Assembly: GCF_001953955.1 (NCBI RefSeq)
Contig: NZ_CP019301.1
Location: 450,501 to 514,500 of the forward strand
Reading direction: 5' to 3'
From: Prevotella intermedia ATCC 25611 = DSM 20706
GTDB lineage: Bacteria; Bacteroidota; Bacteroidia; Bacteroidales; Bacteroidaceae
Length of the DNA stretch: 64,000 nt
The notes under the pieces are model-generated. The model was given only the letters and a program-made list of their open reading frames with translations. It was not told the DNA's origin and made no database searches. The first letter of the stretch is position 1. Each line of letters opens with the position of its first letter. Below, piece after piece: positions 3,475 to 55,710 of the stretch. The position numbers were made by a program, and so were the translations under genes.

Positions 3475-3664
3475 TTTTGTAAAAATAATTCCGAAGAAAA
3501 ACAGTAATTTCGATTTGGCACTGCGAAAGCGGCTCTTTTGCGCTGCAAAACATACGCTTTTACCGTGCAAAACAGCCGCTTTTGGAATGTAAAACAATAG
3601 GTTTTACAAAGCTTTGATATACAGACTGTTATACAATAGTTACACTTGTGAAATATATTTACAC
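3475..3664 (+). repeat. Composite intergenic repeat, copy 1 (type G-T-G)
   Basis: About 190 bp between convergent abc-F and radA. It starts with TTTTGTAAAAATAATT and ends with a GTGAAATATATTTACAC-like box. Slot 1 is GGCTC, slot 2 is CATAC (variant of CCTAC) and slot 3 is CAGCC, so slot 1 pairs with slot 3 with one mismatch. The remaining gap 3267-3474 holds the CTAG array and no gene that I can see. Confidence 0.9.
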
Positions 3665-3686
3665 TTTCATCGTCTTGCCCGACCTG

Positions 3687-5066
3687 TTATCCGAACAGCA
3701 GGCGCAAGGCTTCTTCCACCTTCGCAACGGGGTGCGTGGCTATCTTGTATCTGCCTTTCAAGCCCTGCGCATTGTTCTTGGGAATGATGATGTGGCTGAA
3801 ACCCAGCTTCTCGGCTTCGGCAATGCGCTGCTCTATACGGCTTACGGGACGCACTTCGCCGCTCAATCCCACTTCGCCTGCCATACACCAGCCTGCCTCG
3901 ATAGGAGTATCGACGTTCGACGACAGCACTGCCGCTATCACGCTCAAGTCCATTGCCATATCCGTAATGCGCAGTCCGCCAGCTATATTCAAGAAAACGT
4001 CCTTCTGCATCAGCTTAAAGCCCACTCGTTTTTCAAGCACAGCGAGCAGCATATTGAGGCGACGCTGGTCGAAACCTGTTGCCGAACGCTGCGGAGTGCC
4101 GTAAGCAGCCGACGAAACAAGGGCTTGCGTCTCCACAAGGAAGGGGCGCACCCCCTCGATAGCACTCGAAATGGCAACCCCCGATAGGTCGTCGGGAGTG
4201 TCGGTGAGCAGCAACTCCGACGGATTGCTTACCGGACGCAAGCCGTTTTGGCGCATTTCGTAGATTCCAAGTTCGGAAGTAGAGCCGAAACGGTTCTTTA
4301 TGCTGCGCAAAATGCGGTACATATAATGTTGGTCGCCTTCGAATTGCAACACCGTATCTACGATATGCTCCAGCACTTTCGGCCCCGCAATGGAGCCTTC
4401 CTTGTTGATATGACCAATGAGAATGACAGGAATGTCGCTCGATTTCGCCAATTGGAGCAAGGCAGCAGCACTCTCCCGTATTTGAGTAATACTTCCAGCA
4501 CTGCTTGCAACTGTTTCTGTGGCAACTGTTTGTATAGAGTCTACAACCAAGAGTTCAGGCTTCACGTCCTTGATACAGCTGAATATCTTTTCCACAGATG
4601 TTTCCGAAAGTATCACGATGTTGTCAGGAATGGTTTCGGCAATGCGCAATGCACGCATCTTTATCTGCTGCGGACTTTCCTCACCGCTCACATAGAGCAC
4701 CTTTCGGTCGGTGGCGAGCAGCGTTTGCAGCGTCAGCGTACTCTTGCCGATACCCGGTTCGCCACCTATCAGCACCATACTGCCTGCCACAAGTCCACCT
4801 CCAAGCACACGATTCAATTCGCTGTCCTTCATATCAATACGGATTTCTTCTGCCGAAGAAACCACATTGAGGGCTTGCGGAACGTTGCGTTTCGGTGCGC
4901 CAAAGGTGTGTGCAACCAACTTTTCGCCCGTACTCAGCCCCGTGTTGGGGGCGATACGGATTTGCTTGAACGTGTTCCACTGTCCGCAGTTCGGACATTT
5001 GCCAATCCACTTTGCACTTTCCTGCCCGCAGTTATCGCAGACGTAGGCTGTTTTGTCTTTTGTCAT
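3687..5066 (-). CDS. radA: DNA repair protein RadA (Sms)
   Basis: A 459-residue RadA, the RecA-related branch-migration ATPase that processes recombination intermediates. The N-terminal zinc finger uses Cys10, Cys13, Cys24 and Cys27. Walker A is GGEPGIGKST at residues 101-110, and the RadA-specific KNRFG motif lies near 255. The C-terminal third matches the Lon-protease-like domain of the family. Length is typical. The start at 5066 is fixed by the zinc finger and by a -7 motif at 5077-5084 that would leave a leader of only a few bases. It converges on the ABC-F gene across composite-repeat copy 1. Confidence 0.96.
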   Translation of the reverse strand: MTKDKTAYVCDNCGQESAKWIGKCPNCGQWNTFKQIRIAPNTGLSTGEKLVAHTFGAPKRNVPQALNVVSSAEEIRIDMKDSELNRVLGGGLVAGSMVLIGGEPGIGKSTLTLQTLLATDRKVLYVSGEESPQQIKMRALRIAETIPDNIVILSETSVEKIFSCIKDVKPELLVVDSIQTVATETVASSAGSITQIRESAAALLQLAKSSDIPVILIGHINKEGSIAGPKVLEHIVDTVLQFEGDQHYMYRILRSIKNRFGSTSELGIYEMRQNGLRPVSNPSELLLTDTPDDLSGVAISSAIEGVRPFLVETQALVSSAAYGTPQRSATGFDQRRLNMLLAVLEKRVGFKLMQKDVFLNIAGGLRITDMAMDLSVIAAVLSSNVDTPIEAGWCMAGEVGLSGEVRPVSRIEQRIAEAEKLGFSHIIIPKNNAQGLKGRYKIATHPVAKVEEALRLLFG

Positions 5067-5076
5067 AATTTAACGA

Positions 5077-5084
5077 CAAAAGTA
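5077..5084 (-). promoter_or_regulatory. -7 promoter motif of radA
   Basis: TACTTTTG matches the Bacteroidota TAnnTTTG motif 10 bases ahead of the start codon, implying a very short leader. Confidence 0.7.
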
Positions 5085-5117
5085 GTTCTTTTTTTTCGTT
5101 ATTACAAAAATATTATT

Positions 5118-5125
5118 TACTTTTG
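5118..5125 (+). promoter_or_regulatory. -7 promoter motif of the 5133 lipoprotein
   Basis: TACTTTTG ends 7 bases before the ATG at 5133. A start site a few bases downstream would make the mRNA leaderless or nearly so. Confidence 0.65.
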
Positions 5126-5132
5126 CAATATT

Positions 5133-6032
5133 ATGGAGAGAATAAAATACTTGCTGCTCTTTGCAGCCATCACATTGGTTGGGTGTCAAGTATCTGACGA
5201 GGAAGATTCGCTAATCGGAAAGCGCAAGAACAAGGTAGAGGAAGTTGCCTATGCACGTGCGTTCAAGGTGGGCGTTACGCCTACTATGGACTGTCTGCCC
5301 ATATTTTTGCTCAAGGATAGCAATCTGTATAATCCCGACAACATCGACATTCGACTGAAGGAATATTCATCACAGCTGAATTGCGACACAGCTATGCAGA
5401 ACGGACGTGTACAGGCTTCGGTTACAGACCTTATTCGGGCGGAATACCTGAAAGAGGAAAAGCATATCGTACTCGACTATATGACCGAGACAAACGCCAC
5501 TTGGCAGCTCTTGGCATCACCGCAATCGGGCGTGAAAAGACCCGAAGACTTGGGCAACAAGATTATCGGTTTGACCTTCAACTCCATAATGCAGTACCTC
5601 ACGATACGCGTTTTCTCTGGACACGACATATCTTCAAGGTTCTATGGGTCGCAGATTAACGACATCTTCATTCGATTGAAAATGCTCAACAACAACCAAA
5701 TAGACGCTATCTGGGCGAGCGAACCGCAGACCACACAAGCCAAACTCTTGGGCAACCGAGAGATATACAGCTCGGTAAATGAGACTTTCATACCTGGCGC
5801 AATCGTCTATGTGAACAATCCGAAGATAGAACATCAGCGTGCTTTCGAGGCAGCTTACAACAAGGCGGTGGATATATTGAACAGTCATTCCATACAATAC
5901 TTTGCACCACTCATCAAGAAATATATGAAAGTAGACGACAAAGTGGTGGCTGCATTGCCTAAGATAACCTACAAACGAGTAATTGCACCACGCGAAAGAG
6001 CCATTAACAAGGCAAGGAATATTCTCCCATAA
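5133..6032 (+). CDS. Lipoprotein with substrate-binding (SsuA/NMT1-like) fold
   Basis: A 299-residue lipoprotein with signal peptide and lipobox LVGC (Cys18). Behind the Cys comes SDEED, an acidic stretch like the surface-export signal known from Bacteroides lipoproteins, so it may face outward. The body resembles periplasmic binding proteins of the SsuA/NMT1 type: a KVGVTPTMDCLPIF strand at the start, a hinge segment near 140, and an IDAIWASEPQ segment near 190. The frame stays open upstream to 4248, but the promoter and signal peptide place the start at 5133. No permease or ATPase gene is adjacent, so the ligand is unknown. Confidence 0.75.
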   Translation: MERIKYLLLFAAITLVGCQVSDEEDSLIGKRKNKVEEVAYARAFKVGVTPTMDCLPIFLLKDSNLYNPDNIDIRLKEYSSQLNCDTAMQNGRVQASVTDLIRAEYLKEEKHIVLDYMTETNATWQLLASPQSGVKRPEDLGNKIIGLTFNSIMQYLTIRVFSGHDISSRFYGSQINDIFIRLKMLNNNQIDAIWASEPQTTQAKLLGNREIYSSVNETFIPGAIVYVNNPKIEHQRAFEAAYNKAVDILNSHSIQYFAPLIKKYMKVDDKVVAALPKITYKRVIAPRERAINKARNILP

Positions 6033-6133
6033 ACAAGTCCGACACATAGCTGCCAACTTGCAACAACACCATAGAAGCAGAATAGGAATACCGCCGAAAC
6101 AGAACTAAAGAGAACACAGCATTGAACGTAGAA

Positions 6134-8284
6134 ATGAATATTGGCACTGCTTTCGAACATTTAAGTGCCAAACAGTTAGACGAAGCCATTAAAGTATTGC
6201 AGCCAATATACAACGGCAAACCCTCGTTGGTGGACTACGACAAGTTTATCGCCATTGCAAACGACTACAATTTAATGTGCGACTATATGCTGCGGGGCTT
6301 CAAAGACCCTGCCCGCGAAGGGCTCTACAAATCGCTCTTGGAACATCTCTACAAGGTTACTGCCAACTTGTTGCTAAGCTGGAACTGCAAGAACAAGCCT
6401 ACTTTCGTAGATGCTTTTCGCACTGCCAACCAGTTGAACCTTAGCCACAGTTTCGTGCGCTCTGTGCTCGAAAACTTCGTTTCCGACATTGCTATGCTCT
6501 CGTTAGCCCCCGAAGCGGAACGAAAAAACAAGGAAACGGAACTCTACGAACGCCACCAAACTTTCATAGAACGCCTTTTCAATGCCCTTTTGGTATCGCG
6601 CCAATGGTCTGAAAGCGATGCCAAATTCTACACCGACCTACTCACATCACCCACCATCGATGCTTCCGACCAAATGCTTATCGTCAGTGCCATCAGCCTT
6701 TCTGCGATGACAATCTACGATGTGAAGAAGTTTTCCACCCTCGTAAATGTTTACCGACACGCCCAAGAAGAGAAAGTGCGACAGCGTGCATTAGTGGGCT
6801 GCGTGCTGTCACTCACCGATGATCCGCTGTTTGTAAAGGAACAGGCATCGCTTATGGACGAGCTGACAGCCAGCGAGGATATGAAACGCGAACTGCTGAA
6901 CCTGCAAAAGCAGATGTTCAACTGTATGGACGCCGAGCGCGACAACGACAAGATACAGCGCGACATAATGCCCAACATTATGAAGAATTCCGATTTGCAG
7001 TTCAACCGTTTCGGCATTACGGAGAAAGAGAGCGACGCTTTGGAAAACATTCTGCACCCCGATGCCGATGAGCACAAGATGGAGATGATGGAGGAGAGTA
7101 TCCAGAAGATGATGAAGATGCAGCAACAAGGCTCCGACATCTATTTTGGAGGTTTCAGTAAGATGAAGCGTTTCCCCTTTTTCGACCACATTGCCAATTG
7201 GTTTATGCCTTTCAGTGCCCACCACCCTGGGCTGAAAGAGGTGGCACAAAAGCTTGGCGACAGTTCGTTTCTCGATAAAATGACAGAGCAAGGACTCTTC
7301 TGCGAGTCGGACAAGTATTCGCTTGCCCTCACAATGGCACAGATAATCAACCAGTTGCCTGCCAATATATTGGAAGTAATAAAGTCTGGCGACGGCATCG
7401 GACTGCCTGTTTCGGAACCAGTAGACTATACGCCCGACTTCCTGCGTCGCCTCTATATACAGGATTTGTACCGCTTTTTCGAAGTGAAATTGGCGTTCAA
7501 CAAAGACATTGCCAACCCTTTCAAGAAGAGTGGCAGCTACAAGGCTTTCTTTATGATGCACGACTTGTTCGTGAAAGAAGCTTACATAGAACCTAAGATG
7601 TCCTTGGCAATGTTCCTGCACAAACACAAGCACGAAGCCAACTTAGACGAAATACTCGAAACTTTTTACAGCGAAACAGCTACTTATCAAGTGTTTAGGG
7701 GGCTTAAATCCGAACGGGAAGGAGACGAAAGCGAAGCCTTGGGACACTTCTTGGCAGCAATAGGCGTAGAGCAAGACAACACTTGGGTACTGAAAACAGC
7801 AGGAGTTTTTGCCCTGAAACGCAAGGACTACGGATTCGGTTTGCACTGTTACGGCAAGTTATGCGAACTTCTGCCCGACGTTAAGCCATACGCCATAAAC
7901 CATTGTCTTTGTCTGATAGCCACAGGCGATACGAAAACGGCACTAAACAAAGCGTACGAACTCGACCTAAGCGACGAAACAGACAACCGAGTGAAGCGTC
8001 TTTTGGCATGGGCACTTATCTGCAACGGCAACGGCGAAAAGGCTTTGCACATTTACAACGCACTCACCGAAACCGACCCACTACCCGACGATGCACTCAA
8101 CATTGCCTATGCGCATTGGGTGAACGGCAATCCGAGCGAGGCAAAAAACTACCTCGTTCAGTGGAAGATAAACCACCCCGACGCCAAATTAGAGGAAGAA
8201 TTCGACAACGACTACTATATGTTCGAGCAAAACAGCATCACCGACGTAGACAGAATATTGATGTTGAGCGCATTAAAAGTGTAA
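6134..8284 (+). CDS. TPR-repeat protein of unknown function
   Basis: A 716-residue soluble protein with no signal peptide. The C-terminal third (about 540-700) shows helical repeats of tetratricopeptide type, such as DNTWVLKTAGVFALKRKDYG and the following units. The N-terminal part is helical without a family I can name. The ATG at 6134 is preferred to a TTG at 6122. The last codons and the TAA stop lie in the edge box of composite-repeat copy 2. It is 101 bases behind the lipoprotein gene and may share its transcript. A scaffold role is only a guess from the fold. Confidence 0.75.
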   Translation: MNIGTAFEHLSAKQLDEAIKVLQPIYNGKPSLVDYDKFIAIANDYNLMCDYMLRGFKDPAREGLYKSLLEHLYKVTANLLLSWNCKNKPTFVDAFRTANQLNLSHSFVRSVLENFVSDIAMLSLAPEAERKNKETELYERHQTFIERLFNALLVSRQWSESDAKFYTDLLTSPTIDASDQMLIVSAISLSAMTIYDVKKFSTLVNVYRHAQEEKVRQRALVGCVLSLTDDPLFVKEQASLMDELTASEDMKRELLNLQKQMFNCMDAERDNDKIQRDIMPNIMKNSDLQFNRFGITEKESDALENILHPDADEHKMEMMEESIQKMMKMQQQGSDIYFGGFSKMKRFPFFDHIANWFMPFSAHHPGLKEVAQKLGDSSFLDKMTEQGLFCESDKYSLALTMAQIINQLPANILEVIKSGDGIGLPVSEPVDYTPDFLRRLYIQDLYRFFEVKLAFNKDIANPFKKSGSYKAFFMMHDLFVKEAYIEPKMSLAMFLHKHKHEANLDEILETFYSETATYQVFRGLKSEREGDESEALGHFLAAIGVEQDNTWVLKTAGVFALKRKDYGFGLHCYGKLCELLPDVKPYAINHCLCLIATGDTKTALNKAYELDLSDETDNRVKRLLAWALICNGNGEKALHIYNALTETDPLPDDALNIAYAHWVNGNPSEAKNYLVQWKINHPDAKLEEEFDNDYYMFEQNSITDVDRILMLSALKV

Positions 8285-8470
8285 ATATTTTTCACAAGCA
8301 AAACTATTGCATAACAGACTGTATATCAACGCTTTGCAAAACCTGTTGTTTTGCATTCCAAAAGCGGCTCTTTTGCAAGGTAAAAGCGTAGGTTTTGCAT
8401 CGCAAAACAGCCGCTTTCGCAATGCCAAACCGAAATTACTGTTTTCCCTATAAATTATCTTTACAAAACC
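8279..8470 (-). repeat. Composite intergenic repeat, copy 2 (type G-T-G)
   Basis: Lies between the convergent TPR and WalJ-like genes. Read on the minus strand, slot 1 is GGCTG, slot 2 CCTAC and slot 3 GAGCC. The outer AGTGTAAATATTTTTCAC box contains the stop codon of the TPR gene. It is followed by a CTAG array at 8494-8534. Confidence 0.92.
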
Positions 8471-8493
8471 AAAGTGGTTTTCATGTTTTGCAC

Positions 8494-8534
8494 TAGAAAT
8501 TCTAGAGGGTCTAGTTTTCCTATATTTTTCTAAA
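8494..8534. repeat. 9-bp phased CTAG array next to repeat copy 2
   Basis: CTAG at 8494, 8503 and 8512 and CTAT at 8521, each 9 bp apart, then CTAA at 8531. It lies on the same side of the repeat, relative to repeat orientation, as in copies 1, 3 and 4. Confidence 0.75.
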
Positions 8535-8601
8535 TAACCCAGCTGCTTTTTCATTATCAAAAGCGCACCAAGCAACGCCTCCATCGGCATTCCGCATTAT
8601 A

Positions 8602-8637
8602 AAAGCCCCTTCAACCACGTGTGTTACAAGGGGCTTT
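8602..8637. terminator. Hairpin terminator after the WalJ-like gene
   Basis: AAAGCCCCTT pairs perfectly with AAGGGGCTTT across a 16-base loop. It lies 24 bases beyond the stop of the minus-strand gene and could serve both strands. Confidence 0.8.
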
Positions 8638-8660
8638 ACCAATACCTATATATATGTTTC

Positions 8661-9464
8661 TTATTTCAATTCGTATATTCCGCTGGGCGTTTTCCGCCGC
8701 AACACCTCCACCATAAAATCTACATCGGCTACCAATCCGTGGCTTGCCATCTCGCTCGTTACAGCCTTTCGAGCCAATTCGGGGTGGTTGTTTTCGTCGC
8801 TTAAGTGGCAAAGCCAAACGTGGCGCAACCCCAATGTGGCATTCTCAACGATGGTTTGGGCACACTCGGCATTGCTCAAGTGCCCTGTTTTGCTCGTTAT
8901 GCGAGTCTTCAGATACTGCGGATAGGGACCTGCAGCAAGCTTTTCGGGTTCGTGGTTCGCCTCAATGACCAAGTAATTCGCCCGCGACACGAACGTACGG
9001 ATTTCGTCTGTTATGTGTCCGCAGTCGGTTACAAGCGTGAAAGTTAGCCCTTGGCATTCTATGCAGTAGCCTACACAGTCGGTACTGTCGTGCGGAACCT
9101 CGAACGGAGTTACGGTAAACTCGCCTATTTGCTCGGTTCTGCCCTTCTCCACATATCGCACTTGCTCGGCAACAACCTTCTTTCTGACACACCAGTTGTT
9201 TACAATACCCTCGTGAACCTTCTTGGTTGCATACACAGGAATGGCTTGGTTGTCGCTCATAGAGCCCACCGATTTCACGTGGTCGGCGTGGTCGTGCGTA
9301 ATAAGTATATTGTGAATCATCGACAGATGTAGCCCATAGCTGTGCATATACTTCTTTATCGTCCGAAGGCCGATACCACAATCAATAAAGATTCCGTCGG
9401 TTTCGGTGTAAAGAAAGTAGGCATTGCCACTGCTGCCACTGCCAAAAGATATGAATTTAAGCAT
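8661..9464 (-). CDS. MBL-fold metallohydrolase, WalJ/YycJ-like
   Basis: A 267-residue metallo-beta-lactamase-fold protein. The metal motif THDHADH spans residues 56-62 and the start reads MLKFISFGSGSSGNAYF, a hallmark of the YycJ/WalJ group, which are thought to be DNases acting in genome maintenance. The frame extends 15 codons upstream, but the ATG at 9464 fits the family start and has a -7 motif at 9482-9489. It stands alone between repeat copy 2 and tamL. The exact substrate is inference. Confidence 0.88.
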   Translation of the reverse strand: MLKFISFGSGSSGNAYFLYTETDGIFIDCGIGLRTIKKYMHSYGLHLSMIHNILITHDHADHVKSVGSMSDNQAIPVYATKKVHEGIVNNWCVRKKVVAEQVRYVEKGRTEQIGEFTVTPFEVPHDSTDCVGYCIECQGLTFTLVTDCGHITDEIRTFVSRANYLVIEANHEPEKLAAGPYPQYLKTRITSKTGHLSNAECAQTIVENATLGLRHVWLCHLSDENNHPELARKAVTSEMASHGLVADVDFMVEVLRRKTPSGIYELK

Positions 9465-9481
9465 TATATTGTAATTTGCTG

Positions 9482-9489
9482 CAAAAGTA
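9482..9489 (-). promoter_or_regulatory. -7 promoter motif of the WalJ-like gene
   Basis: TACTTTTG lies 17 bases ahead of the start at 9464 and supports this start over the longer frame. Confidence 0.7.
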
Positions 9490-9586
9490 ATAAAACTATT
9501 TAACAACACAAAGCGTTGGGGCTTCGAGTTTCTCTGACATTCTTGTTTTTTCGCTTTGCTGAACGCTCAAGTGTGCTTCGGTATTT

Positions 9587-11860
9587 TTAGAAAGGCAATC
9601 CGACAGCAAAGTGGAAGGTGAAATCGCGTCCAAAACGTGGATGGAAGAGTGGGAAATGCTCTTTCAACGAAGTGTAGGCAGGGTTTATGGCTTTCATACC
9701 AGCATCGAAACGCAGTATGAAATAGTCGAAGTTAAGACGCAAACCCAATCCGTAAGCCGCTGCAATCTGCTGCCAGAACTTATCGAAACGGAACTGTCCG
9801 TCAGGCTGTTCGGCATATTCGCGCAGTGTCCAGATGTTGCCTGCATCAATGAAAGCCGCTCCGTCGAACTTCCAAAACAAACGGGTGCGGTACTCAGCGT
9901 TCAGATTCAACTTCAAATCACCTGTCTGATTGATGAAGTCAATGCGCCCATCGGTTCCACGAAAGCCACCCGGCCCCAACTCTCTGACACTCCAACCGCG
10001 CACCGAGTTAGGGCCTCCTGCAATATAACGCTTCTCGAAAGGCAACACCTTGCTGTTTCCGTAAGGATAGGCAATGCCGAAATCGGCGTGCAGCGCAAGC
10101 GAGTTGCGGGGGTCGAAACGCAATATACGTGTGAAAGCGAAGTCGAATTTAAGGTACTGTGCATAGGCAATGTTGAATATTTTCGACTGTCCTTGCTCGT
10201 TTTTCTTAAAGTTCGACAGGTTGTCGGCAAGCGAAAGGAGGTTTCCTGCCGACTCTACCTTTGCCCTGATGGCTACATCGTCGTTGCGATTATAGCTTAG
10301 ACTGAAGCCTGCACGCATAATGAAGAGGTCTTCATAGTTGTAGCGCAATATGGCGTTTCGGTTGTTTACGTTGTCGAGATAGTCTTTCTTGAAGCGTTCG
10401 CTAATCCACGGCATATAGACGTAGCTTAGGTCGGGCACCTCCAACTCGTAGCGCAGGTGGCGGCGGGCGTTGCTCCAATTGTACTTCCACGCTGCCGAGA
10501 AGACACGACGGTGAAACTCTGGGCGGTCTTGCAAATCCCAACTGACCGACAATTCGGACACAGCGTTGCTGCGACGGCGGAACTCCCGTGTAGAGAAAGG
10601 CGAAAGAAAGCGTGGGAATTGTAGGCGGGCTTGCACCCCATACTCCTCGTAATTGTGGTTGTTGTAGCCTTCCAACCCCTTTATAGCTTCAAAAGCGGCA
10701 CGTAATTCTATACTGAACAGCTCGCTTCCGTGGAAGAGATTGCGGTTCTGATAGGTAAGAACGGCAGCCGCACCAAGGTCGCCTGCAGTGTTGGTGCCTT
10801 CGGGTTGGAACGAAATCGTGTTGGGTTTGTTGCTCGAAAGCTTAATGTTAGCCTCTAAATATCGCTTTTCCGACTGCTGATAGCCTAACATTTTGCCCAC
10901 GATAATGGAGTCTACACGCTGCATTTCCTTAAATTCAATGTCGGTATAGCGTATTGCTCCCAAGCGAGCCAAGTTGTTATAGGTAGTCTGAAGGTCGGTT
11001 GCCGAGAAGTATTTTCCAGGTTCTATGAGCGTGTTGTCGGCTATAATCTCACGGCGGATATGCAATCCAGTCGAGTCGCCAGGCAGCACATTCACCCTTC
11101 CGACAATATAACGAGGGTGCAAGGCAGGCTCCGACGCAGACGATGGTTGATATTTCGTAAGGTGGAGCGTAACGTCTACCGCACGAGAACCGCGCACGGT
11201 GTCGGCAGTATAGTATATATAGTCTTTGTTGAAGCGGTAATAGCCTTGGTCGTTCAGTATTTTCGTGATGCGTTTGCGCTCGTTATCGAGTGCCAAAACG
11301 GTGAATTGGCGTGGGTGGGTGGCATCAAAGCCTTGCGAAAGGTTAGGTTTAAGAATGTCGGCAATTATCGAATCCTGAATGTCGTAGCTGAAACGGTCTA
11401 TCATAAACGGCTTACCCGGAAGCAGCGTATATATGGCTTTCAGCTTTTTGCCCCTCACTTTCGTGTTGAAAACTACACGTGCGTTCATATAACCCATATT
11501 GTTCATTGCCACACGAAGGTCTTCGCACGACAGACGAGCCTGCAATGTATCGTAGTAAACGGGCTTTTCGCCGATGCGTTGCAACGTTCTGTTTATCCAC
11601 TTGGTAGTATCTCGCCCTGCCAAAGAGTAGGTTCCGAGCGGTATTTTAAAGAACGAGAACCACCGTGAGTTCTCTTTTTGTCGCACATACTGCGCCAACT
11701 GCGTCGCATTAAAGTCGGCTTCGTCGGAGCACAACTCCACTTTGTCGAGCAAATAGCTACCGTCTGCCACAAACTTATCGGTCGAACACGACGACAAAAG
11801 CAATGCTAAAGTGGCAAAAAACAGTAGAAAATATGTATGGAAACCTTTTATCCTAAACAT
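9587..11860 (-). CDS. tamL: TamL-type outer-membrane lipoprotein (BamA superfamily)
   Basis: A 757-residue BamA/TamA-superfamily protein with a lipoprotein signal (lipobox LLSSC, Cys25). Lipidation marks TamL, the Bacteroidota version of TamA that works in outer-membrane assembly. Residues from about 30 to 320 are POTRA-like; the C-terminal 400 residues form the surface-antigen barrel, with the conserved lid-loop segment GGPNSVRGW near 640 and a terminal FHFAVGLPF strand. The usual partner TamB is not in this window. It is divergent from the TrmH-type gene, with a -7 motif at 11881-11888. Family call is firm; function is inferred from homologues. Confidence 0.88.
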   Translation of the reverse strand: MFRIKGFHTYFLLFFATLALLLSSCSTDKFVADGSYLLDKVELCSDEADFNATQLAQYVRQKENSRWFSFFKIPLGTYSLAGRDTTKWINRTLQRIGEKPVYYDTLQARLSCEDLRVAMNNMGYMNARVVFNTKVRGKKLKAIYTLLPGKPFMIDRFSYDIQDSIIADILKPNLSQGFDATHPRQFTVLALDNERKRITKILNDQGYYRFNKDYIYYTADTVRGSRAVDVTLHLTKYQPSSASEPALHPRYIVGRVNVLPGDSTGLHIRREIIADNTLIEPGKYFSATDLQTTYNNLARLGAIRYTDIEFKEMQRVDSIIVGKMLGYQQSEKRYLEANIKLSSNKPNTISFQPEGTNTAGDLGAAAVLTYQNRNLFHGSELFSIELRAAFEAIKGLEGYNNHNYEEYGVQARLQFPRFLSPFSTREFRRRSNAVSELSVSWDLQDRPEFHRRVFSAAWKYNWSNARRHLRYELEVPDLSYVYMPWISERFKKDYLDNVNNRNAILRYNYEDLFIMRAGFSLSYNRNDDVAIRAKVESAGNLLSLADNLSNFKKNEQGQSKIFNIAYAQYLKFDFAFTRILRFDPRNSLALHADFGIAYPYGNSKVLPFEKRYIAGGPNSVRGWSVRELGPGGFRGTDGRIDFINQTGDLKLNLNAEYRTRLFWKFDGAAFIDAGNIWTLREYAEQPDGQFRFDKFWQQIAAAYGLGLRLNFDYFILRFDAGMKAINPAYTSLKEHFPLFHPRFGRDFTFHFAVGLPF

Positions 11861-11880
11861 TAATACCGCTAATTTTGGGG

Positions 11881-11888
11881 CAAAGATA
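11881..11888 (-). promoter_or_regulatory. -7 promoter motif of tamL
   Basis: TATCTTTG on the minus strand, 20 bases ahead of the start codon at 11860. Confidence 0.65.
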
Positions 11889-11932
11889 CTAAAAAGTTGG
11901 GAGTAAAAGAGCGCAAACAGATAGTTTTTTTG

Positions 11933-11940
11933 TATTTTTG
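11933..11940 (+). promoter_or_regulatory. -7 promoter motif of the TrmH-type methyltransferase
   Basis: TATTTTTG ends 4 bases before a GTG at 11945. The motif lies inside the longer open frame from 11897, which argues that translation starts at or after 11945. Confidence 0.65.
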
Positions 11941-11944
11941 TAGA

Positions 11945-12697
11945 GTGATTTCAAAGAATAAAATAAAACTCGTTCGGGCACTCGAAACGAAGAAAGGGAG
12001 AGAAAAACAGGGGCTCTTTGTGGCTGAAGGACCTAAGGTGGTGGGCGATTTGCTTGCTGCGGGGTTCGAGTTGGTGGAACTTTTCGAGGAGGAAGAGGAC
12101 ATTAAAAAGGTGTCGTTCCTGCAACACCCACAAGGAAAGCTCGGCATATTCAAACTGCCTGAGCAGACGAAAACGAAGGATGGCGAGTGCGAAACGGCAG
12201 TCGGTACAGAACACAAGGTGCTCCTTGGCGAAAACGAACTGGCACTTGCGCTCGACAGCGTGCAAGACCCTGGCAATCTCGGAACGATTATCCGTGTGGC
12301 TGACTGGTTTGGTATCGAGCGCATTTTCTGCTCGATGGACACGGCAGACTGCTGGAATCCGAAAGTGGTGCAAGCCACTATGGGTAGCATTGCAAGGGTA
12401 AAGATGTATTACTTGAACCTAAACGAGTTAATCAACTCGTTGCCAAAGGACTACCCTATCTACGGAACGCTGCTTGACGGTGAGGATATTTACGAAGAAA
12501 AGCTCTCTGCAAACGGCCTCATCGTAATGGGAAACGAGGGCAACGGCATATCGGCAGCCATACGACAACGGGTGAACAGGAAGCTGCTGATACCGAACTT
12601 CTCGGTCGGAACAACACGTGCCGAATCGCTGAACGTTGCCATTGCAACAGCCGTAGTATGCTCGGAGTTTAAGCGAAGAGAGCAGAAAAAGGTGTAA
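11945..12697 (+). CDS. TrmH/SpoU-family RNA 2'-O-methyltransferase
   Basis: A 250-residue SPOUT methyltransferase that would methylate a ribose 2'-OH in rRNA or tRNA using S-adenosylmethionine. The N-terminal substrate-binding domain contains GREKQGLFVAEGPK. The three TrmH motifs are present: DSVQDPGNLGTIIR, GNEGNGI and TTRAESLNVAIATA, which form the knotted cofactor site. The GTG at 11945 is chosen because the family begins there and the promoter lies just upstream; this would give a leaderless transcript. It is divergent from tamL. The target nucleotide cannot be read from the sequence. Confidence 0.88.
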   Translation: MISKNKIKLVRALETKKGREKQGLFVAEGPKVVGDLLAAGFELVELFEEEEDIKKVSFLQHPQGKLGIFKLPEQTKTKDGECETAVGTEHKVLLGENELALALDSVQDPGNLGTIIRVADWFGIERIFCSMDTADCWNPKVVQATMGSIARVKMYYLNLNELINSLPKDYPIYGTLLDGEDIYEEKLSANGLIVMGNEGNGISAAIRQRVNRKLLIPNFSVGTTRAESLNVAIATAVVCSEFKRREQKKV

Positions 12698-12732
12698 CAA
12701 CCGAATCATAAAGGTATAAAAACGATAGAGAA

Positions 12733-13308
12733 ATGGAAGACTTGATAAAAGAACGCAGCGTGAAAAGCTGCATTGCCTTGGGCTACAAGCATTGGCAACA
12801 ACATTTGGGCGAAACTTTCCGTCGCACACGTTGGCGCATTCTTCTCAGTGCGGTTATGTTTACAGCGTTTATCATTTCTGCTTTAATGGGTGCGCCTAAT
12901 TGGCTCTACATCTTATTATTAACGTTTTCGATGAACAGTGTAGCCGTAAAGGTGCGCAGTTTGGCAGGCGAAATGGAAACAGCACAAAAGGGAAAGAAAC
13001 TGATTAAGAAAAATCTGGGCTACTATGTCTACTTCTTTTGCCTTTCGCTGATAGTAAAATTGTGCACCATACTTGTGGTGGGCGCACCGCTGTTGCTGCT
13101 CCTTTATATGTATTGGCTTGACAGCGAGACGGTGAAAATGGGCGATCCCTCTACCCTTTCTACCACTTACTGGGTGCTTACGGGGCTTACAGCCTTCGCC
13201 ACCACCATTGCCGTAAGGTTCATAGACACGTGGGAAGACTATGCCGAGCTTTATATCTTCGGCACAATGATAACCCGAAACCGTACGAGAAGGCAGGGCA
13301 AAGCGTGA
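12733..13308 (+). CDS. Membrane protein of unknown function
   Basis: A 191-residue protein with four likely membrane segments at about 37-55, 58-72, 98-125 and 144-162, a basic N-terminus (TFRRTRWR) and a basic C-terminus. I recognise no family. It begins 35 bases after the methyltransferase gene on the same strand and probably shares its transcript. The reading frame is supported by clean membrane-protein composition and by the repeat copy that begins just past its stop. Confidence 0.7.
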   Translation: MEDLIKERSVKSCIALGYKHWQQHLGETFRRTRWRILLSAVMFTAFIISALMGAPNWLYILLLTFSMNSVAVKVRSLAGEMETAQKGKKLIKKNLGYYVYFFCLSLIVKLCTILVVGAPLLLLLYMYWLDSETVKMGDPSTLSTTYWVLTGLTAFATTIAVRFIDTWEDYAELYIFGTMITRNRTRRQGKA

Positions 13309-13347
13309 TTTGTTGCGTGCTTGGCAGCGAAGAGAAAGTGTTATCGT

Positions 13348-13387
13348 CTAGAAAATCTAGTTCTCCTAGATTCTCTAGAATAACTAG
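13348..13387. repeat. 9-bp phased CTAG array next to repeat copy 3
   Basis: CTAG starts at 13348, 13357, 13366, 13375 and 13384, five times exactly 9 bp apart. This is the most regular of the four CTAG arrays. Confidence 0.9.
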
Positions 13388-13413
13388 GATAAAACCTAAA
13401 AAACTGTCTTGGC

Positions 13414-13604
13414 TTTGTAAAAATAATTCGTAGAGAAAACCACAATTTCGATTTGGCATTGCGAAAGCGGCTCTTTTGGACAGGAAAAGAGCCGCTTTTA
13501 CCGTGCAAAACCTACGCTTTTGCAACGCCAAACAATAGGTTTTGCAAAGCATTGATAGCAAGACAGTTACACAATAGATAAGCTTCTGAAAAATATTTAC
13601 ACTC
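13414..13604 (+). repeat. Composite intergenic repeat, copy 3 (type G-G-T)
   Basis: Lies between the convergent membrane-protein gene and proS. Slot 1 GGCTC and slot 2 GAGCC are perfect complements and form a short hairpin; slot 3 is CCTAC. The outer GAAAAATATTTACAC box is intact. Confidence 0.92.
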
Positions 13605-13636
13605 TTATTGCCTGTTTTTCGCCCATATAGAAAACA

Positions 13637-16331: not shown

Positions 16332-16520
16332 TTGTAAAGATAATTTCAAAGAAAAACGGCAATTTCGTTTTGGCATTGCGAAAGCGGCTCTTTTGCAATG
16401 CAAAAGAGCCGCTTTTACCGTGCAAAACCTACACTTTTAGAACGCAAAACAATAGGTTTTACAATGCGTTGATAATAAGCAAGTTATGCAGCAAATACAC
16501 TTGCGAAAAATATTTACACT
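16332..16520 (+). repeat. Composite intergenic repeat, copy 4 (type G-G-T)
   Basis: Lies between the convergent OmpA-like and YeiH-like genes. Slots 1 and 2 (GGCTC/GAGCC) are perfect complements; slot 3 is CCTAC. It follows the intrinsic terminator of the OmpA-like gene by about 140 bases. Confidence 0.92.
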
Positions 16521-16610
16521 ATTTTCGCTCGCTTCCCACATATATAATAAGGTGTGCAAGCGAAGCTACTTACCGCTTTGAACAAAACTTCTACCGCTTC
16601 GATTCGATAT

Positions 16611-25847: not shown

Positions 25848-25937
25848 AAACCTACCTTCAGCCACCCACATTGCTGCATTGAAAAGCGCAGAAAAAGCCA
25901 ATGCAAAGAGCAGCTCTACAATCAAAAGAAAACCCAT

Positions 25938-26132
25938 AAAACTGTAAAGATTTATCCAAACAGAAACTTTCACCTAACACGCTCGCTATCAACGCATTGC
26001 AAAACCTATTGTTTTGCATTCCAAAAGTGGCTGTTTTGCACGGTAAAAGAGTAGGTTTTGCGTTGCAAAACAGCCGCTTTCGCAGTGCCAAACCGAAATT
26101 AGCGTTTTCTTAACGAATTATCTTTACAAAAC
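25938..26132 (-). repeat. Composite intergenic repeat, copy 5 (type G-T-G)
   Basis: Lies between convergent nrdG and the ATPase gene. Slot 1 GGCTG and slot 3 CAGCC are exact complements; slot 2 is CCTAC. The outer box is a variant, CTGTAAAGATTTATCC, shared with copy 6. No CTAG array is present. Confidence 0.92.
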
Positions 26133-27630: not shown

Positions 27631-27762
27631 TACACCATTTATAAGATTGGCGAACACTGATAAACAATGCTTCATATTGTTGTTTTCTTACTTAGAAAGG
27701 GAAGACTGACCATAAATATTAAGCCTTTTCTTAATAGAAACTCAGACAAAAACATGCTCATA

Positions 27763-27956
27763 AAACTGTAAAGATTTATTCAAACGGAAACTTTTGCGTA
27801 ACACACTCGCTATCAACGCATTGCAAAACCTATTGTTTTGCGTTCCCAAAGCGGCTGTTTTGCACGGTAAAAGCGTAGGTTTTGCGTTGCAAAACAGCCG
27901 CTTTCGCAGTGTCAAATCGAAATTAGTATTTTTCTTCGGAATTATTTTTACAAAAC
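27763..27956 (-). repeat. Composite intergenic repeat, copy 6 (type G-T-G)
   Basis: Lies between the ATPase gene and the 3' end of rubrerythrin, both on the minus strand. Slot 1 GGCTG and slot 3 CAGCC are exact complements; slot 2 is CCTAC. The outer box is the same variant as in copy 5. Confidence 0.92.
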
Positions 27957-30367: not shown

Positions 30368-30549
30368 TTCTTGGCAATTTGTATGGAAAATTGTTTTCTG
30401 CTATATCCAACGACAGTGGAAACATAAATATCCTTGCAAACTATAAATCACATTACGAAGAATCCCTGTTTCTATGTTTATTGGTGTCATTTATTAGAAG
30501 GAATAAATACCCTCAAGGGTGTAACTGTCTCCTATATTTATATAGCCAT

Positions 30550-30743
30550 AAAGGTGTAAATATTTTTCACAAGAACATCTATCGCATAACTACTTCGCTA
30601 TCAGCGTATTGCAAAACCTATTGTTTGGCATTCCAAAAGCGTAGGTTTTGCACGGTAAAAGTGGCTGTTTTGCATCGCAAAACCTACGCTTTCGCAACGT
30701 CAAATCGAAATTATCGTTTTTCGTCAGAATTATTTTTACAAAA
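30550..30743 (-). repeat. Composite intergenic repeat, copy 7 (type T-G-T)
   Basis: Lies beyond the rhuM stop, ahead of the MaoC gene on the same strand. Slot 1 GTAGG is exactly complementary to slot 3 CCTAC; slot 2 is CAGCC. The flank at 30870-30900 resembles that of copy 9. Confidence 0.92.
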
Positions 30744-35567: not shown

Positions 35568-35992
35568 TCATCGCATAATTGCGTTGGTTTCATCATATAA
35601 TCCGAGCAAAATTAACTCGAAGTATTTCTCATCTCTAAATCCATATGCCTTTCTCTTTATCATTTTTATCTTATTGTTTATTCCTTCGACTCTTGCATTG
35701 GATATTTGGTAATCATACCATGCTGATATTCCAGTTCTTCTGGCCATGAGTGAAGCCGCAGCCTTCTTGAAACAATAGAGCTTACTCTCTTGTGCCTGTC
35801 TGCACCAATACTCTAATTGTCCCAGAGCCTCTTCCTTGTTTTTCTGCATCCATATCTGATCTATGTCCTCATACAGGTAATATGCAGTAGCCAAGGGGTT
35901 GTTTGTTTCTAATATATTATCCAATCTCTTCTTATACTTCTTATCTGATTTTTCAGGATCCTTCCTCAGCAGTATCCATCTATTACCTTTTT
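35568..35992 (-). pseudogene. ISL3-family transposase remnant (C-terminal part)
   Basis: About 140 residues matching the C-terminal end of ISL3-family DDE transposases: ISAWYDYQISNARVEGI, NNKIKMIKRKAYGFRD and YFELILLGLYD are typical. Full-length members have about 400 residues, so the N-terminal zinc-binding part and most of the DDE domain are missing. The open frame continues about ten codons into composite-repeat copy 8 (MIIVLWHCEK), so the apparent start is a fusion artefact. No intact inverted repeats were found. It is a dead insertion-sequence end. Confidence 0.85.
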
Positions 35993-36044
35993 CACAATGC
36001 CAAAGCACAATTATCATTTTTCGATAAAATAATCTTTACAAAAC
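35993..36044 (-). repeat. Composite intergenic repeat, copy 8 (truncated)
   Basis: Only the proximal end remains: TTTTGTAAAGATTATTTT through CTTTGGCATTGTGAA. All three slots are lost where the transposase remnant begins. It is downstream of rpsP. Confidence 0.85.
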
Positions 36045-40095: not shown

Positions 40096-40371
40096 AAGCA
40101 AGCCTTACAGCTTGACCATACACAGATATAAATAAATAATTGATAGGTAGTAACATTTTTCAGCGACAAAGGAAAAGTTAAAGTCGCATTTAAGAAAGGT
40201 TATGTAGAGAGGAACTCCATGCGATATGGTGTTCCTCTTGTTTTTTATTCACTTAGCGCAACACAGACTACAATAAAAGCACGGAGCCATTACAAACGGT
40301 TCACAGTCCTACTTCAGAACTGTAGAAAATTAATGGAAACACCCCTTTTTATGAACAAAAAGAGAATAACA

Positions 40372-40564
40372 AAAGTGTAAATATTTTTCACAAGCCCAAC
40401 TATTGCATAACCACCTCGCTATCAAGGCTTTGCAAAACCTATTGTTTTGCATTCCAAAAGCGTAGGTTTTGCACGGTAAAAGCGGCTGTTTTGCATCGCA
40501 AAACCTACGCTTTCGCAATGCCAAATCGAAATTATCATTTTACCAACGAATTATCTTTACAAAA
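40372..40564 (-). repeat. Composite intergenic repeat, copy 9 (type T-G-T)
   Basis: Lies between convergent genes. Slot 1 GTAGG and slot 3 CCTAC are exact complements; slot 2 is CAGCC. Near-identical in slots to copy 7. Bases 40096-40371 and 40565-40707 hold no gene that I can support. Confidence 0.93.
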
Positions 40565-50131: not shown

Positions 50132-51070
50132 ATGAATCCTACAAAACCTTTATCAGGTATCTTCTCTCTTCTTTTCGTTGCAGCTATTTTCCTCTCGGCT
50201 TGTGGCAGCGACAACAGTAATTCGCCCGACGATGACAACGGCAAAGCCATTGCCAACAACAAGAATTCCAATCTAAAAGAGGGCAACCAATATACACATC
50301 GCTTGGAGTTCCCGAAAGTTAAAGGTAGCAAAAACATCGTTGTTACACATATAGACCAAAGCACAGACGAAGTAAACTATAGCATTGAATGGGACGGTGA
50401 AAAGAAATCGAACCGCTGGACTTGCTATCAGCTATACCAAAGCAACAGCAAATGGAACGTAGGCAGATGGTATGGCAACCCACAATATCCTTCCGACCCT
50501 TTGATTCCTGCTTCTATGGCATTCAGCTACGACCCCTATTGGAACACTGGCTACGACCATGGGCACCTTTGTCCTTCAGCAGACCGCAGAAATACAGAAG
50601 AAGCACAAAAGCAAACCTTCTACATCAGCAATATGCAACCACAGCTTAGCGCATTCAACGGCAGTGCGAAAGGTGGCGGTATTTGGCTGACAATGGAAAA
50701 CAAAATACGTGCTGCGTTCAATATAAACTCAAAAGACACAATGTTTATATGCCGTGGCGGCACCATCGACGAGTCATCTAAAGTGAAAGCCTACCTACGC
50801 AATGGCTTCATCGTGCCAGGCTATTTCTTCTCGGCAGCACTGATGAAATACTATAACTATGCGCACAAGAAGTGGGAATACAAAGCCATCGGATTTTGGT
50901 TTAAACACGAAAACAACCAAGATTCATCGCTTAAACCTTATGTTGTAAACATAAAAGAGCTTGAAGAACTCACCCATATAGACTTCTTCTGCAATCTCCC
51001 AGACGACATAGAGAAGAAAGTTGAGGGACTGAACAAGGACATTATCATAAACTTGTGGAACATTAAATAA
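50132..51070 (+). CDS. NUC1-family (DNA/RNA non-specific) endonuclease lipoprotein
   Basis: A 312-residue lipoprotein, lipobox LSAC near residue 24, followed by GSDNSNSPDDDNG, an acidic stretch suggesting surface export. The NUC1 active-site motif is YDHGHLCPSADR near residue 148, with His as general base; a downstream Asn in ISNMQPQ helps bind the metal. It would degrade DNA and RNA at the cell surface and feed the neighbouring receptor. A DHGH rather than DRGH motif is common in Bacteroidota members. It lies 124 bases beyond rpmE. Confidence 0.93.
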   Translation: MNPTKPLSGIFSLLFVAAIFLSACGSDNSNSPDDDNGKAIANNKNSNLKEGNQYTHRLEFPKVKGSKNIVVTHIDQSTDEVNYSIEWDGEKKSNRWTCYQLYQSNSKWNVGRWYGNPQYPSDPLIPASMAFSYDPYWNTGYDHGHLCPSADRRNTEEAQKQTFYISNMQPQLSAFNGSAKGGGIWLTMENKIRAAFNINSKDTMFICRGGTIDESSKVKAYLRNGFIVPGYFFSAALMKYYNYAHKKWEYKAIGFWFKHENNQDSSLKPYVVNIKELEELTHIDFFCNLPDDIEKKVEGLNKDIIINLWNIK

Positions 51071-51097
51071 CGAAACGACAAGCGAAAAAACAACCCA

Positions 51098-51293
51098 TAA
51101 AGCTGTAAATATTTTTCATAAGAATATCTATTGCATAACACTCTCATTATCAACGCAATGCAAAACCTATTGTTTTGCATTGTAAAAGCGTAGGTTTTAC
51201 ACGGTAAAAGCGGCTCTTTTGCATCGCAAAACAGCCGCTTTCGCAATGCCAAATCGAAATTATCATTTTCCTTACGAATTATCCTTACAAAAC
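51098..51293 (-). repeat. Composite intergenic repeat, copy 10 (type G-G-T)
   Basis: Lies between convergent genes. Slot 1 GGCTG pairs with slot 2 GAGCC with one mismatch; slot 3 is CCTAC. Same slot set as copy 11. The outer box starts CTGTAAATATTTTTCA. Confidence 0.92.
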
Positions 51294-51372
51294 CAAAGAA
51301 TTTCTTTAGCATTTGAAATAAGCAATAAAAAGAAAACCACACTACTGAAACTCCACTGTGCCCACACATAAA

Positions 51373-54560: not shown

Positions 54561-54601
54561 AAAGAAACGCATAAGGCATCTTTGAAATGCCATTAACAAA
54601 G

Positions 54602-54641
54602 AAAAAGCCCTAACCAAATACAAGTTTGGTCAGGGCTTTTT
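54602..54641 (+). terminator. Intrinsic terminator of the T9SS CxxC gene
   Basis: AAAAAGCCCTAACCAAA pairs with TTTGGTCAGGGCTTTTT (one mismatch, 6-base loop), with a terminal T-run. Confidence 0.88.
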
Positions 54642-54760
54642 AAAGTTAATGCCGTAAAGAAGTTAATCGTTGAATGAAAGCAAATTACAGAAGCCTATCT
54701 TTAAACAACACATATAAGATTTTTTAATGCTTACAAAATTGATTATTCGGAATAATTTTG

Positions 54761-54768
54761 TATATTTG
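54761..54768 (+). promoter_or_regulatory. -7 promoter motif of the glutathione peroxidase gene
   Basis: TATATTTG, 40 bases ahead of the ATG at 54809. Confidence 0.7.
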
Positions 54769-54808
54769 CAGATACTACAAGGTATTCATTTAAAATAGAA
54801 AACAAGAA

Positions 54809-55363
54809 ATGAAAACAGTTTATGATTTCACTGTCAAAGACAGAAAAGGCGGTGATATTTCTTTAAAAGCGTTTGCCAACGAAGTGCTGTTAATTGTAAA
54901 CACAGCTACAAAATGTGGGTTCACACCAACTTACGATGAACTCGAAGCTACTTACAAAAAGTATCATTCACAGGGCTTTGAAGTGCTCGATTTCCCTTGC
55001 AACCAATTTGGACAGCAGGCTCCGGGAACCGACGAGAGCATTCACCAGTTCTGTAAACTTACATACGGCACTGAATTTCCACGCTTCAAGAAGATTAAAG
55101 TAAACGGCGAAGATGCTGACCCGCTTTACAAATTCTTGAAAGAACAAAAGGGTTTTGCAGGTTGGGACGAAAGCCACAAGCTCACACCTATACTCGACAA
55201 GATGTTGTCAGAGGCTGACCCAGACTACAAAGAGAAGTCGGACATTAAGTGGAACTTCACAAAATTCCTTATCAACAAGAAAGGTCAAGTTATTGCACGC
55301 TTCGAACCAACTGAAAAGATAGAGAACATTGAGAAGGAAATAGAGAAGTTGCTCGCAGAATAA
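54809..55363 (+). CDS. Glutathione/thioredoxin peroxidase (BtuE-like)
   Basis: A 184-residue Cys-type peroxidase that reduces peroxides. The active-site segment NTATKCGFTPTYDELE carries the peroxidatic Cys (near residue 36); LDFPCNQFGQQ and KWNFTKFLI (Trp-Asn) complete the tetrad. A Cys replaces the selenocysteine of animal enzymes. The length is normal and there is no signal peptide. With the rubrerythrin at 28 kb it belongs to the peroxide defences of the cell. It converges on the symporter gene across repeat copy 11. Confidence 0.95.
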   Translation: MKTVYDFTVKDRKGGDISLKAFANEVLLIVNTATKCGFTPTYDELEATYKKYHSQGFEVLDFPCNQFGQQAPGTDESIHQFCKLTYGTEFPRFKKIKVNGEDADPLYKFLKEQKGFAGWDESHKLTPILDKMLSEADPDYKEKSDIKWNFTKFLINKKGQVIARFEPTEKIENIEKEIEKLLAE

Positions 55364-55515
55364 AGCATTCGCACAATAAATAAAGAGAGTAGAAAGAAAA
55401 CCGTAAAACGGACAGTCTTTCTACTCTTTTTTATTTTCAGCTTTCTCATTTCAGCTTCTTACAGACCAGTAAAACTCAATGGAAACAACCTACTTTATGA
55501 ACGAAAAGAAGACTA

Positions 55516-55710
55516 TAAAGCTGTAAATATTTTTCACAAGCACCACTATTAAATAACAATCTGTGTATCAACACATTACAAAACCTATTGTTTTGCATTC
55601 CAAAAGCGTAGGTTTTACACGGTAAAAGCGGCTCTTTTGCATCGCAAAACAGCCGCTTTCGCAATGCCAAAGCGCAATTACCACTTTTCAATGAAATTAT
55701 CTTTACAAAA
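55516..55710 (-). repeat. Composite intergenic repeat, copy 11 (type G-G-T)
   Basis: Lies between convergent genes. Slot 1 GGCTG pairs with slot 2 GAGCC (one mismatch); slot 3 is CCTAC. Near-identical in its slots to copy 10. Confidence 0.92.

Follow-up and report, generated by a model that had tools for sequence, protein, structure and literature searches.

Copies of the repeat in the window

A 64,000-nucleotide stretch of the Prevotella intermedia ATCC 25611 = DSM 20706 genome (contig NZ_CP019301.1, positions 450,501 to 514,500; hereafter the window, numbered from its first letter) contains ten full copies and one fragment of PINSR, an intergenic repeat that has already been named. New here are its architecture, its relatives in the genus, the exchange of cassettes between copies and its role as a target of an insertion sequence (IS). 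In the core of the repeat, 15-nt palindromes (TTTTGC-N3-GCAAAA and variants) alternate with 7-nt spacers, the cassettes s0 to s3, to form an array with a period of 22 bp. All eleven elements lie where a first-pass annotation of the sequence had placed them, and the full copies reach 193–209 bits with a profile of the element.

Eight full copies occupy convergent gaps. On the forward strand these are 3475..3670 (gap 3266/3687), also found in P. falsenii and in the related genome G629; 13414..13608 (gap 13308/13687), whose P. falsenii counterpart has a changed s0 spacer; and 16332..16524 (gap 16118/16611), present in G629 and absent from P. falsenii and P. nigrescens. On the reverse strand they are 8274..8468 (gap 8284/8661), 25936..26131 (gap 25847/26209), 40370..40564 (gap 40095/40708), whose P. 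falsenii ortholog has unchanged cassette classes, and the copies at 51097..51292 (gap 51070/51430) and 55515..55710 (gap 55363/55786), each with a P. falsenii ortholog in which two cassettes have changed. The two copies in tandem gaps, both on the reverse strand, lie past the 3′ ends of neighbouring genes: 27760..27955 beyond 28183-28836(-), and 30548..30743 beyond 29390-30367(+). An AAA_14/DUF4143 ATPase gene (26209-27501) sits between two PINSR copies; the counterpart site in P. falsenii (locus L109) appears without the ATPase gene and without one PINSR.

With genes called by our own hexamer caller, not by curated annotation, 8 of the 11 convergent gaps in the window hold a copy, and no copy lies in a divergent gap, as the first-pass annotation had stated. 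Its claim that the three copy-free convergent gaps carry hairpin terminators instead holds for 31562-31769 and 60555-60905; none was found in 42023-42204. The copies that it had delimited as 190-bp units are real, but conservation across 70 copies begins about 15 bp before the head and continues 28 bp past the tail, which brings the unit nearer to 240 bp.

Identity with PINSR

PINSR was described as a 188-bp intergenic repeat of P. intermedia strains OMA14 (177 copies) and 17 (184 copies), which lacks coding capacity and occurs in hundreds of copies in the P. intermedia/nigrescens group (PMC4755523). According to the accessible part of that paper, its sites are common to strains, it is absent from most strain-specific regions, rearrangements have taken place between copies, and it has no terminal inverted repeats (TIRs); P. 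nigrescens, P. falsenii and P. disiens are given as its species range, and its function and source are left open. The window repeat is alike in species group, length (about 188 bp), intergenic position, copy number in the hundreds, lack of coding capacity, strain-shared sites and rearrangements. Since its length, its copy number, the species that carry it and its position between genes agree with those of PINSR, it is a known element and not a new one. A literature search for the name PINSR together with Prevotella intermedia returned PMC4755523 alone. Internal structure, placement at gene ends, relatives outside the group and insertion by an IS do not figure in the accessible part of the paper, to which the present analysis adds the conserved length of about 240 bp, the 22-bp hairpin array, cassette exchange and related arrays in the genus.

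The genome consists of two contigs (1.97 and 0.71 Mb), of which 724 of 2674 kb (27%) were sampled as a systematic set of 660 kb plus the window. A profile search of this sample yielded 73 full and 16 partial elements; the 63 full copies in the systematic part extrapolate to about 255 genome-wide, against the published 177 and 184. None of these 89 distinct elements was called inside a gene, and 11 lay at stretch edges. An exact 26-nt PINSR pattern occurs at 17 loci in P. falsenii and at one locus each in P. disiens and P. ihumii, where the full profile gives weak scores, while the match in P. nigrescens is 86% over 193 bp. For comparison, identity of nrdD is 92% to P. falsenii (G017) and 90.5% to P. 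nigrescens. Rfam returned no matches for the window; the copy searched as 51050-51340 gave eight, with E values up to 1 and all below the gathering score.

Architecture and folding of the core

The period of the core is strict. In the P. intermedia sample, 292 pairs of units of the AAAA-N7-TTTT type lie 22 bp apart, compared with at most 2 at any distance of 16-21 or 23-30 bp, and 22-bp pairs recur in P. nigrescens (49), G629 (29), G078 (27) and G053 (12). A typical core spans 51173..51253 on the reverse strand, with palindromes from 51239, 51217 and 51173, a diverged one assigned to 51195 by the 22-bp period, and spacers of 7 nt. Some copies carry an extra head extension of about 80-100 bp. 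The ends of the element, read by eye, show a short and imperfect symmetry (TGTAAA-N-AT).

Few words fill the spacers: GCGGCTS or GCGTAGG in s0, CCTACGC or SAGCCGC in s1 and s2, and CAATAGG in s3. Three cassette orders account for 63 of the 73 full copies (gTGA 38, gGTA 17, tGTA 8), the other 10 being rare or untyped, and the order shows no link to the flanking columns (198 columns tested; p no lower than 0.007 outside the spacers). Spacers s1 and s2 belong to the same class in 6 of 72 copies, compared with 34.8 after shuffling (0 of 2000 shuffles). When 40 of 72 cores were folded, the mean z was -5.3 and -5.5 on the two strands, and six predicted structures pair s0 with s1 or s2 in unbroken stems of 16-19 bp in five cases and of 11 plus 8 bp in one. 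In P. falsenii, pairing of s0 exceeds the shuffled expectation (44 of 49 vs 39.3; 6 of 2000 shuffles).

A second array with a 22-bp period, at 21697-21783 of the window, is built from other palindromes (TTTACACGTAAA type) and AT-rich spacers. A similar array is found near the end of locus L109 in P. falsenii, and a palindromic AAGCTTAGATAA-type repeat at window positions 63642-63684 was grouped with the 21697-21783 array by the repeat finder.

Inheritance of sites and exchange of cassettes

Orthologous gaps of P. intermedia and P. falsenii are occupied in both species in 13 cases, in P. intermedia only in one and in P. falsenii only in two, and are empty in both in 42; that is, 13 of the 14 copy-bearing P. 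intermedia gaps with an alignable P. falsenii gap are occupied there too. The shared gaps contain 14 pairs of elements, and in each pair the two have the same orientation. The P. intermedia-only site is the one at 16332, and as G629 has a copy there, loss in P. falsenii is probable, even though the copy is missing from P. nigrescens as well. In the comparison with G629, two gaps are occupied in both genomes and one, with a partial element, in P. intermedia only. Among 20 alignable P. nigrescens gaps, one is occupied in both species and two in P. intermedia only, the P. nigrescens gap being much shorter in these.

Fifteen orthologous pairs (12 of the 14 same-orientation pairs and three others, the gap at window 30367 with its two P. 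falsenii copies being left out) were compared with permuted partners. Orthologs resemble each other more than permuted partners at the 5′ end and in the 3′ part (0 of 1000 permutations each) and at the 3′ end (1 of 1000). No such likeness is seen for s0, the palindrome P1 and s2 (662, 617 and 330 of 1000), and s1 retains it in part (44). At least one cassette class has changed in 12 of the 15 pairs. The s2 word CCTACGG is found in none of 72 P. intermedia copies and in 26 of 51 from P. falsenii, and the s0 word CCGTAGG in 0 of 72 and 13 of 51, respectively. The segments P2 and s3 hardly change, with mismatches at 3 of 225 and 3 of 105 positions over the same 15 pairs. In the six of the 13 doubly occupied gaps that differ in length by at most 60, the ends diverge no slower than the flanks (5′ end 0.85, 3′ part 0.73, 3′ end 0.84; flanks 0.82-0.87; empty gaps 0.856).

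These data show that most of the compared sites, with their orientation, are inherited vertically, and that spacers are replaced as blocks between orthologs. The core has the pattern of concerted evolution, caused by ectopic gene conversion, by selection on the hairpin, or by both. The block-wise exchange of spacers and the GCAAAA-N7-TTTTGC layout, which we take to resemble the core sites of tyrosine recombinases, would also suit 7-bp crossover regions of a recombinase-like site, with cassette exchange as site-specific recombination. P1, which lies between spacers, has likewise lost its ortholog memory, suggesting exchange tracts longer than 7 bp, and we regard this explanation as highly improbable. 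A broader version treats PINSR as a branch of a class of rewritable 22-bp hairpin arrays that occurs in several Prevotella species. Machinery devoted to the task, either a site-specific recombinase or template switching directed by the hairpin, would swap 7-nt cassettes within a fixed palindromic frame among hundreds of loci, with complementarity kept. This version is decidedly unlikely.

Two breaks in gene order relative to P. falsenii within window positions 1-20000, near 8.5 and 13.4 kb, adjoin copies, consistent with the rearrangements reported in the accessible part of the original description (PMC4755523). Elsewhere in the P. intermedia genome, the C1 site L063:6358 joins the flanks of two separate P. 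falsenii PINSR loci (L021 and L027), a rearrangement at the repeat.

Related arrays in other genomes

Among ten chosen genomes, PINSR-like matches fade with relatedness: they are strong in P. falsenii, reach 81% at best in G629, 76% in G676 and 75% in P. ihumii (G162), are short and weak in G610, G671, G602 and G603, and were found in neither G075 nor G123. The palindrome TTTTGC-N3-GCAAAA, counted over 249 genomes of the genus, occurs 228 times in the P. intermedia genome, 145 times in P. falsenii, 44 times in G078, 35 times in G053 and 29 times in G004, and a few times at most in the bulk. Among 295 genomes searched outside the genus, exact sites number 27 in G249, 19 in G515 and 12 in G347. 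The stricter pattern AAAA-N7-TTTTGC-N3-GCAAAA-N7-TTTT has matches in all 12 chosen genomes (1 to 37 each), while its reversed control gives 0 or 1 per genome, except for 9 in G194.

The arms of these units covary in two relatives, G629 and G078. Perfectly complementary arms are found in 16 of 37 places in G629 (3.9 after shuffling) and in 12 of 18 in G078 (1.5 after shuffling), and complementarity among 22 places of other loci also exceeds shuffling (0 of 2000). For the 17-bp hairpin, all unit places listed for G629 (37), G610 (9) and G078 (18) were combined, which left 55 distinct 37-mers from 64 places; G053, G194, G183 and G039 were left out. Because the pattern used for picking units fixes the core, only seven arm pairs are informative. 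Across these units, 122 double-change cells were counted compared with 54 after shuffling (0 of 500), and the covariation score was 0.274 compared with 0.081 (0 of 500), slid versions of the hairpin giving 0.04-0.08.

This covariation bears on the proposal that PINSR acts as DNA, its palindromes, spaced by about two helical turns, being sites at which a nucleoid-associated protein or some other DNA-binding protein would bind. The 22-bp period, the conserved palindromic core and the lack of strand bias would fit such a role. A binding site in double-stranded DNA would not, however, need arms that covary, and P1 and the spacers are freely replaced between orthologs; we therefore consider a protein-binding array quite unlikely.

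The reversed form of the TTTTGC-N3-GCAAAA palindrome, AAAACG-N3-CGTTTT, is itself enriched in G058 (113), G194 (48), G183 (20), G235 and G132 (15 each) and G088 (10). These sites are probably the CGNNNCG spacers of related arrays, a pattern seen in one locus (L033). No description of such 22-bp arrays was met in the literature searched, which mostly did not cover subscription papers.

Placement relative to genes

Of the 73 full copies, 64 lie in gaps with two called neighbours and nine at stretch edges. Convergent gaps hold 25 of the 64 copies (11.8 expected by length), tandem gaps 32 (36.1) and divergent gaps 7 (16.1; p 4e-5). The bias to convergent gaps noted in the first-pass annotation persists when the window is set aside, with 17 of 54 copies (9.6 expected) next to 30 in tandem and 7 in divergent gaps (p 0.012). 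The strict confinement to gene 3′ ends that it proposed describes the window and not the genome, as seven of the 64 copies lie in divergent gaps. These divergent gaps are long (680-1513 bp). The 150 bp next to gene starts hold only 3 copies, compared with 15.7 for random positions in gaps (0 of 2000), and 28 of the 32 copies in tandem gaps are nearer to the 3′ end. A bias of the element relative to the replication strand was likewise rejected: orientation agrees with the sign of the local GC skew in 42 copies and opposes it in 31 (p 0.24).

Stretches of P. falsenii, G629, G078, G053 and G194 had been picked around known matches, so that placement counts from them do not represent a random sample. 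In those of P. falsenii, 28 core clusters comprise 8 in convergent, 8 in divergent and 11 in tandem gaps and one at an edge. Tandem clusters lie nearer to the 3′ end in 10 of 11 cases in P. falsenii, 6 of 6 in G078, 4 of 4 in G053 and 3 of 4 in G629. Thus the bias to convergent gaps is not general, whereas the distance from gene starts is, and the placement is most simply explained if copies avoid promoters and are not drawn to gene ends.

The alternative is a functional 3′-end element, a terminator or a hairpin protecting the 3′ end of mRNA that selection would retain at gene ends, most of all where genes converge. It draws on the enrichment in convergent gaps, the position of tandem copies both in P. 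intermedia and in the relatives, the strong hairpin on both strands, and the units of other species, whose A4-arm-core-arm-T4 layout resembles a two-way terminator. Our own search for a hairpin followed by a T run (at least 5 T in 7), however, found a consensus intrinsic terminator inside only three of the 73 copies when one strand was scanned and inside two when the other was, and copies in tandem gaps show no bias in orientation (18 with and 16 against the genes). Intrinsic termination was rejected on the terminator counts, and a role in ending transcripts, suggested by the first-pass annotation, fails in its simple form. In addition, 36 of 81 gene ends that face a PINSR have their own terminator before the repeat (PINSR-free ends: 36 of 62 convergent, 38 of 152 tandem), the distance from copy to stop codon is broad, and copies do occur in divergent gaps. 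Selection as a 3′-end element is, on balance, unlikely.

Transposases and the ISL3-family insertion sequence

The fragment in the window consists of a PINSR head (35990..36043, reverse strand, 54 bp) fused directly to a transposase remnant, an open reading frame at 35568..36017 on the reverse strand that encodes the C-terminal half of an ISL3-family transposase (PF01610, profile positions 114-239 of 240). The corresponding IS is 1.31 kb long and has four copies in the genome, two of them intact, all of which touch a PINSR. Six IS ends were found genome-wide with at most two mismatches; four abut PINSR at GCGAAAGC, one of them with a 1-bp offset, and two have no PINSR flank, one of these being the window end GGTTCATCGC at 35565. 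A clean insertion shows the 8-mer GCGAAAGC on both sides. This 8-mer is present in 62 of the 73 copies and occurs 139 times in the 724 kb, frequencies which make it possible, from few events, that the IS prefers the PINSR palindrome over the 8-mer alone. At eight ISL3-type loci checked in G629, G676 and P. falsenii, the profile detected no PINSR within the fetched locus.

PINSR could in principle be a miniature inverted-repeat transposable element (MITE) mobilised by a transposase in trans, given that copies are dispersed, that 2 of 16 compared sites are occupied in P. falsenii only, and that the ends have the short TGTAAA-N-AT symmetry. Target duplications, which the first-pass annotation had named as a sign of transposition, were not found: over 819 combinations of offset and length, tried on the 70 copies for which both flanks were available, the highest z was 3.5. 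The two P. falsenii-only copies share flanks beyond the element and thus lack clean edges, 13 of the 16 compared sites are common to both species, and the absence of TIRs reported in the accessible text (PMC4755523) points the same way. Y1_Tnp and ISL3 were the transposases searched for. The adjoining ISL3-family IS inserts into PINSR with different ends of its own, and no RAYT/IS200 gene was detected: PF01797 (Y1_Tnp) has no match in the genome, with a positive control in 5 of 14 named genomes. This agrees with the first-pass annotation, which saw no RAYT transposase, and REP-like mobility driven by RAYT was rejected. Mobilisation as a MITE is accordingly quite improbable.

A phage origin was rejected as well, as a phage collection contained no match. 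The short pattern occurs on 16 viral contigs, four of which carry PINSR by profile, all near the contig end, and these are read as host flanks.

Likeness to known families of repeats

Gene conversion was reportedly proposed for the evolution of REP elements by Higgins in 1988. BOX elements (with A-B-C modules) and ERIC elements are, like PINSR, modular or long imperfect palindromes that occupy intergenic sites in many copies. Compared as families and not by sequence, BOX and ERIC are not known to have the fixed 22-bp frame of PINSR or its swapped complementary cassettes. The resemblance to REP/BIME elements suggested in the first-pass annotation is supported: the GTAG- and CGTC-tagged elements are, in the part of the source available, also intergenic hairpins found mostly in convergent and tandem gaps (PMC3733652). 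REP elements are, moreover, known targets of insertion sequences, according to the available text of PMC1525189, as PINSR is. PINSR differs from REP/BIME in its longer multi-unit 22-bp array, its variable and covarying arms, and the lack of a RAYT gene in the genome. Instead of the 20-40 bp GTAG-tagged palindrome that is the hallmark of REP, it has about 240 bp with several palindromes, and GTAG occurs inside some spacers but not as an end tag.

Among oral Bacteroidales, the BrickBuilt MITE of Porphyromonas gingivalis is likewise interspersed and composed of short unit repeats (23 nt), but has, according to the accessible part of its description, TIRs most similar to ISPg1/ISPg9, and its 23-nt unit AGAYCATARTATCCTCTCRTRTG is unlike the 22-bp unit of PINSR when compared by eye (PMC4596501). 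A survey of candidate structured RNAs from the human microbiome lists, in the part available, 250 of 3161 candidates as palindromic, some of them mostly from Bacteroidetes, with 230 of these palindromic candidates predicted to be terminators (PMC8040213). Judged by their description and not by their sequences, the palindromic candidates could include PINSR-like arrays.

A hairpin element probably tolerated away from promoters

PINSR lacks the tested defining features of REP elements, MITEs and intrinsic terminators, and the favoured view is that it works like REP and BOX elements. We read it, with a probability of roughly 55%, as a REP/BOX-like hairpin element whose copies are kept alike by ectopic gene conversion and are tolerated at a distance from promoters. 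The 22-bp spacing would let a spacer and the flanking palindrome arms pair in register with a complementary spacer one or two units away, which would give a long stem on either strand. Near-identical palindromes would then mediate ectopic gene conversion that rewrites copies, and conversion would preserve the uniformity of the core and its ability to fold, with the ends left to drift. Copies would survive mainly far from promoters because insertion near a gene start would be harmful. Beyond gene ends, they probably form a hairpin in the 3′ untranslated region (3′-UTR) and act like REP, ERIC or BOX rather than as intrinsic terminators. The ISL3-family IS also lands in the hairpin core, and breaks in gene order lie beside copies. 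A function, if any, most likely resides in this core, as 3′-UTR RNA or as DNA.

Several observations weigh against the view of a converted hairpin element. Conversion is deduced from patterns that might in part reflect selection for the hairpin or template switching inside it, and the role in the 3′-UTR is a proposal drawn from the sequence. In P. intermedia, s0 can pair with s1 or s2 in 64 of 72 copies, compared with a shuffled mean of 66.7 (1938 of 2000 shuffles at least as high), pairing that follows automatically once s1 and s2 differ, and no one secondary structure suits all cassette types. Complementarity within the strict pattern does not exceed shuffling in the nine P. intermedia and five P. 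falsenii places, nor does the mean in G610 (2 of 9 complementary; 1739 of 5000 shuffles). G194 has a single 22-bp pair, and its control matches exceed the true ones by 9 to 1. Finally, the P. falsenii stretches show no depletion of divergent gaps, as 8 clusters fall in 28 divergent gaps and 8 in 27 convergent ones.

PINSR has been in print since 2015, and the present analysis supplies its anatomy together with a wider set of Prevotella hairpin arrays whose arms covary. The contrast between window and genome illustrates that a single window can overstate a rule of placement, while the ISL3-family IS now has a concrete landing site. Copies stay at their inherited positions and yet trade short cassettes in a concerted way, which makes two questions testable: how very short tracts are converted between scattered copies, and what requires the hairpin to be preserved.

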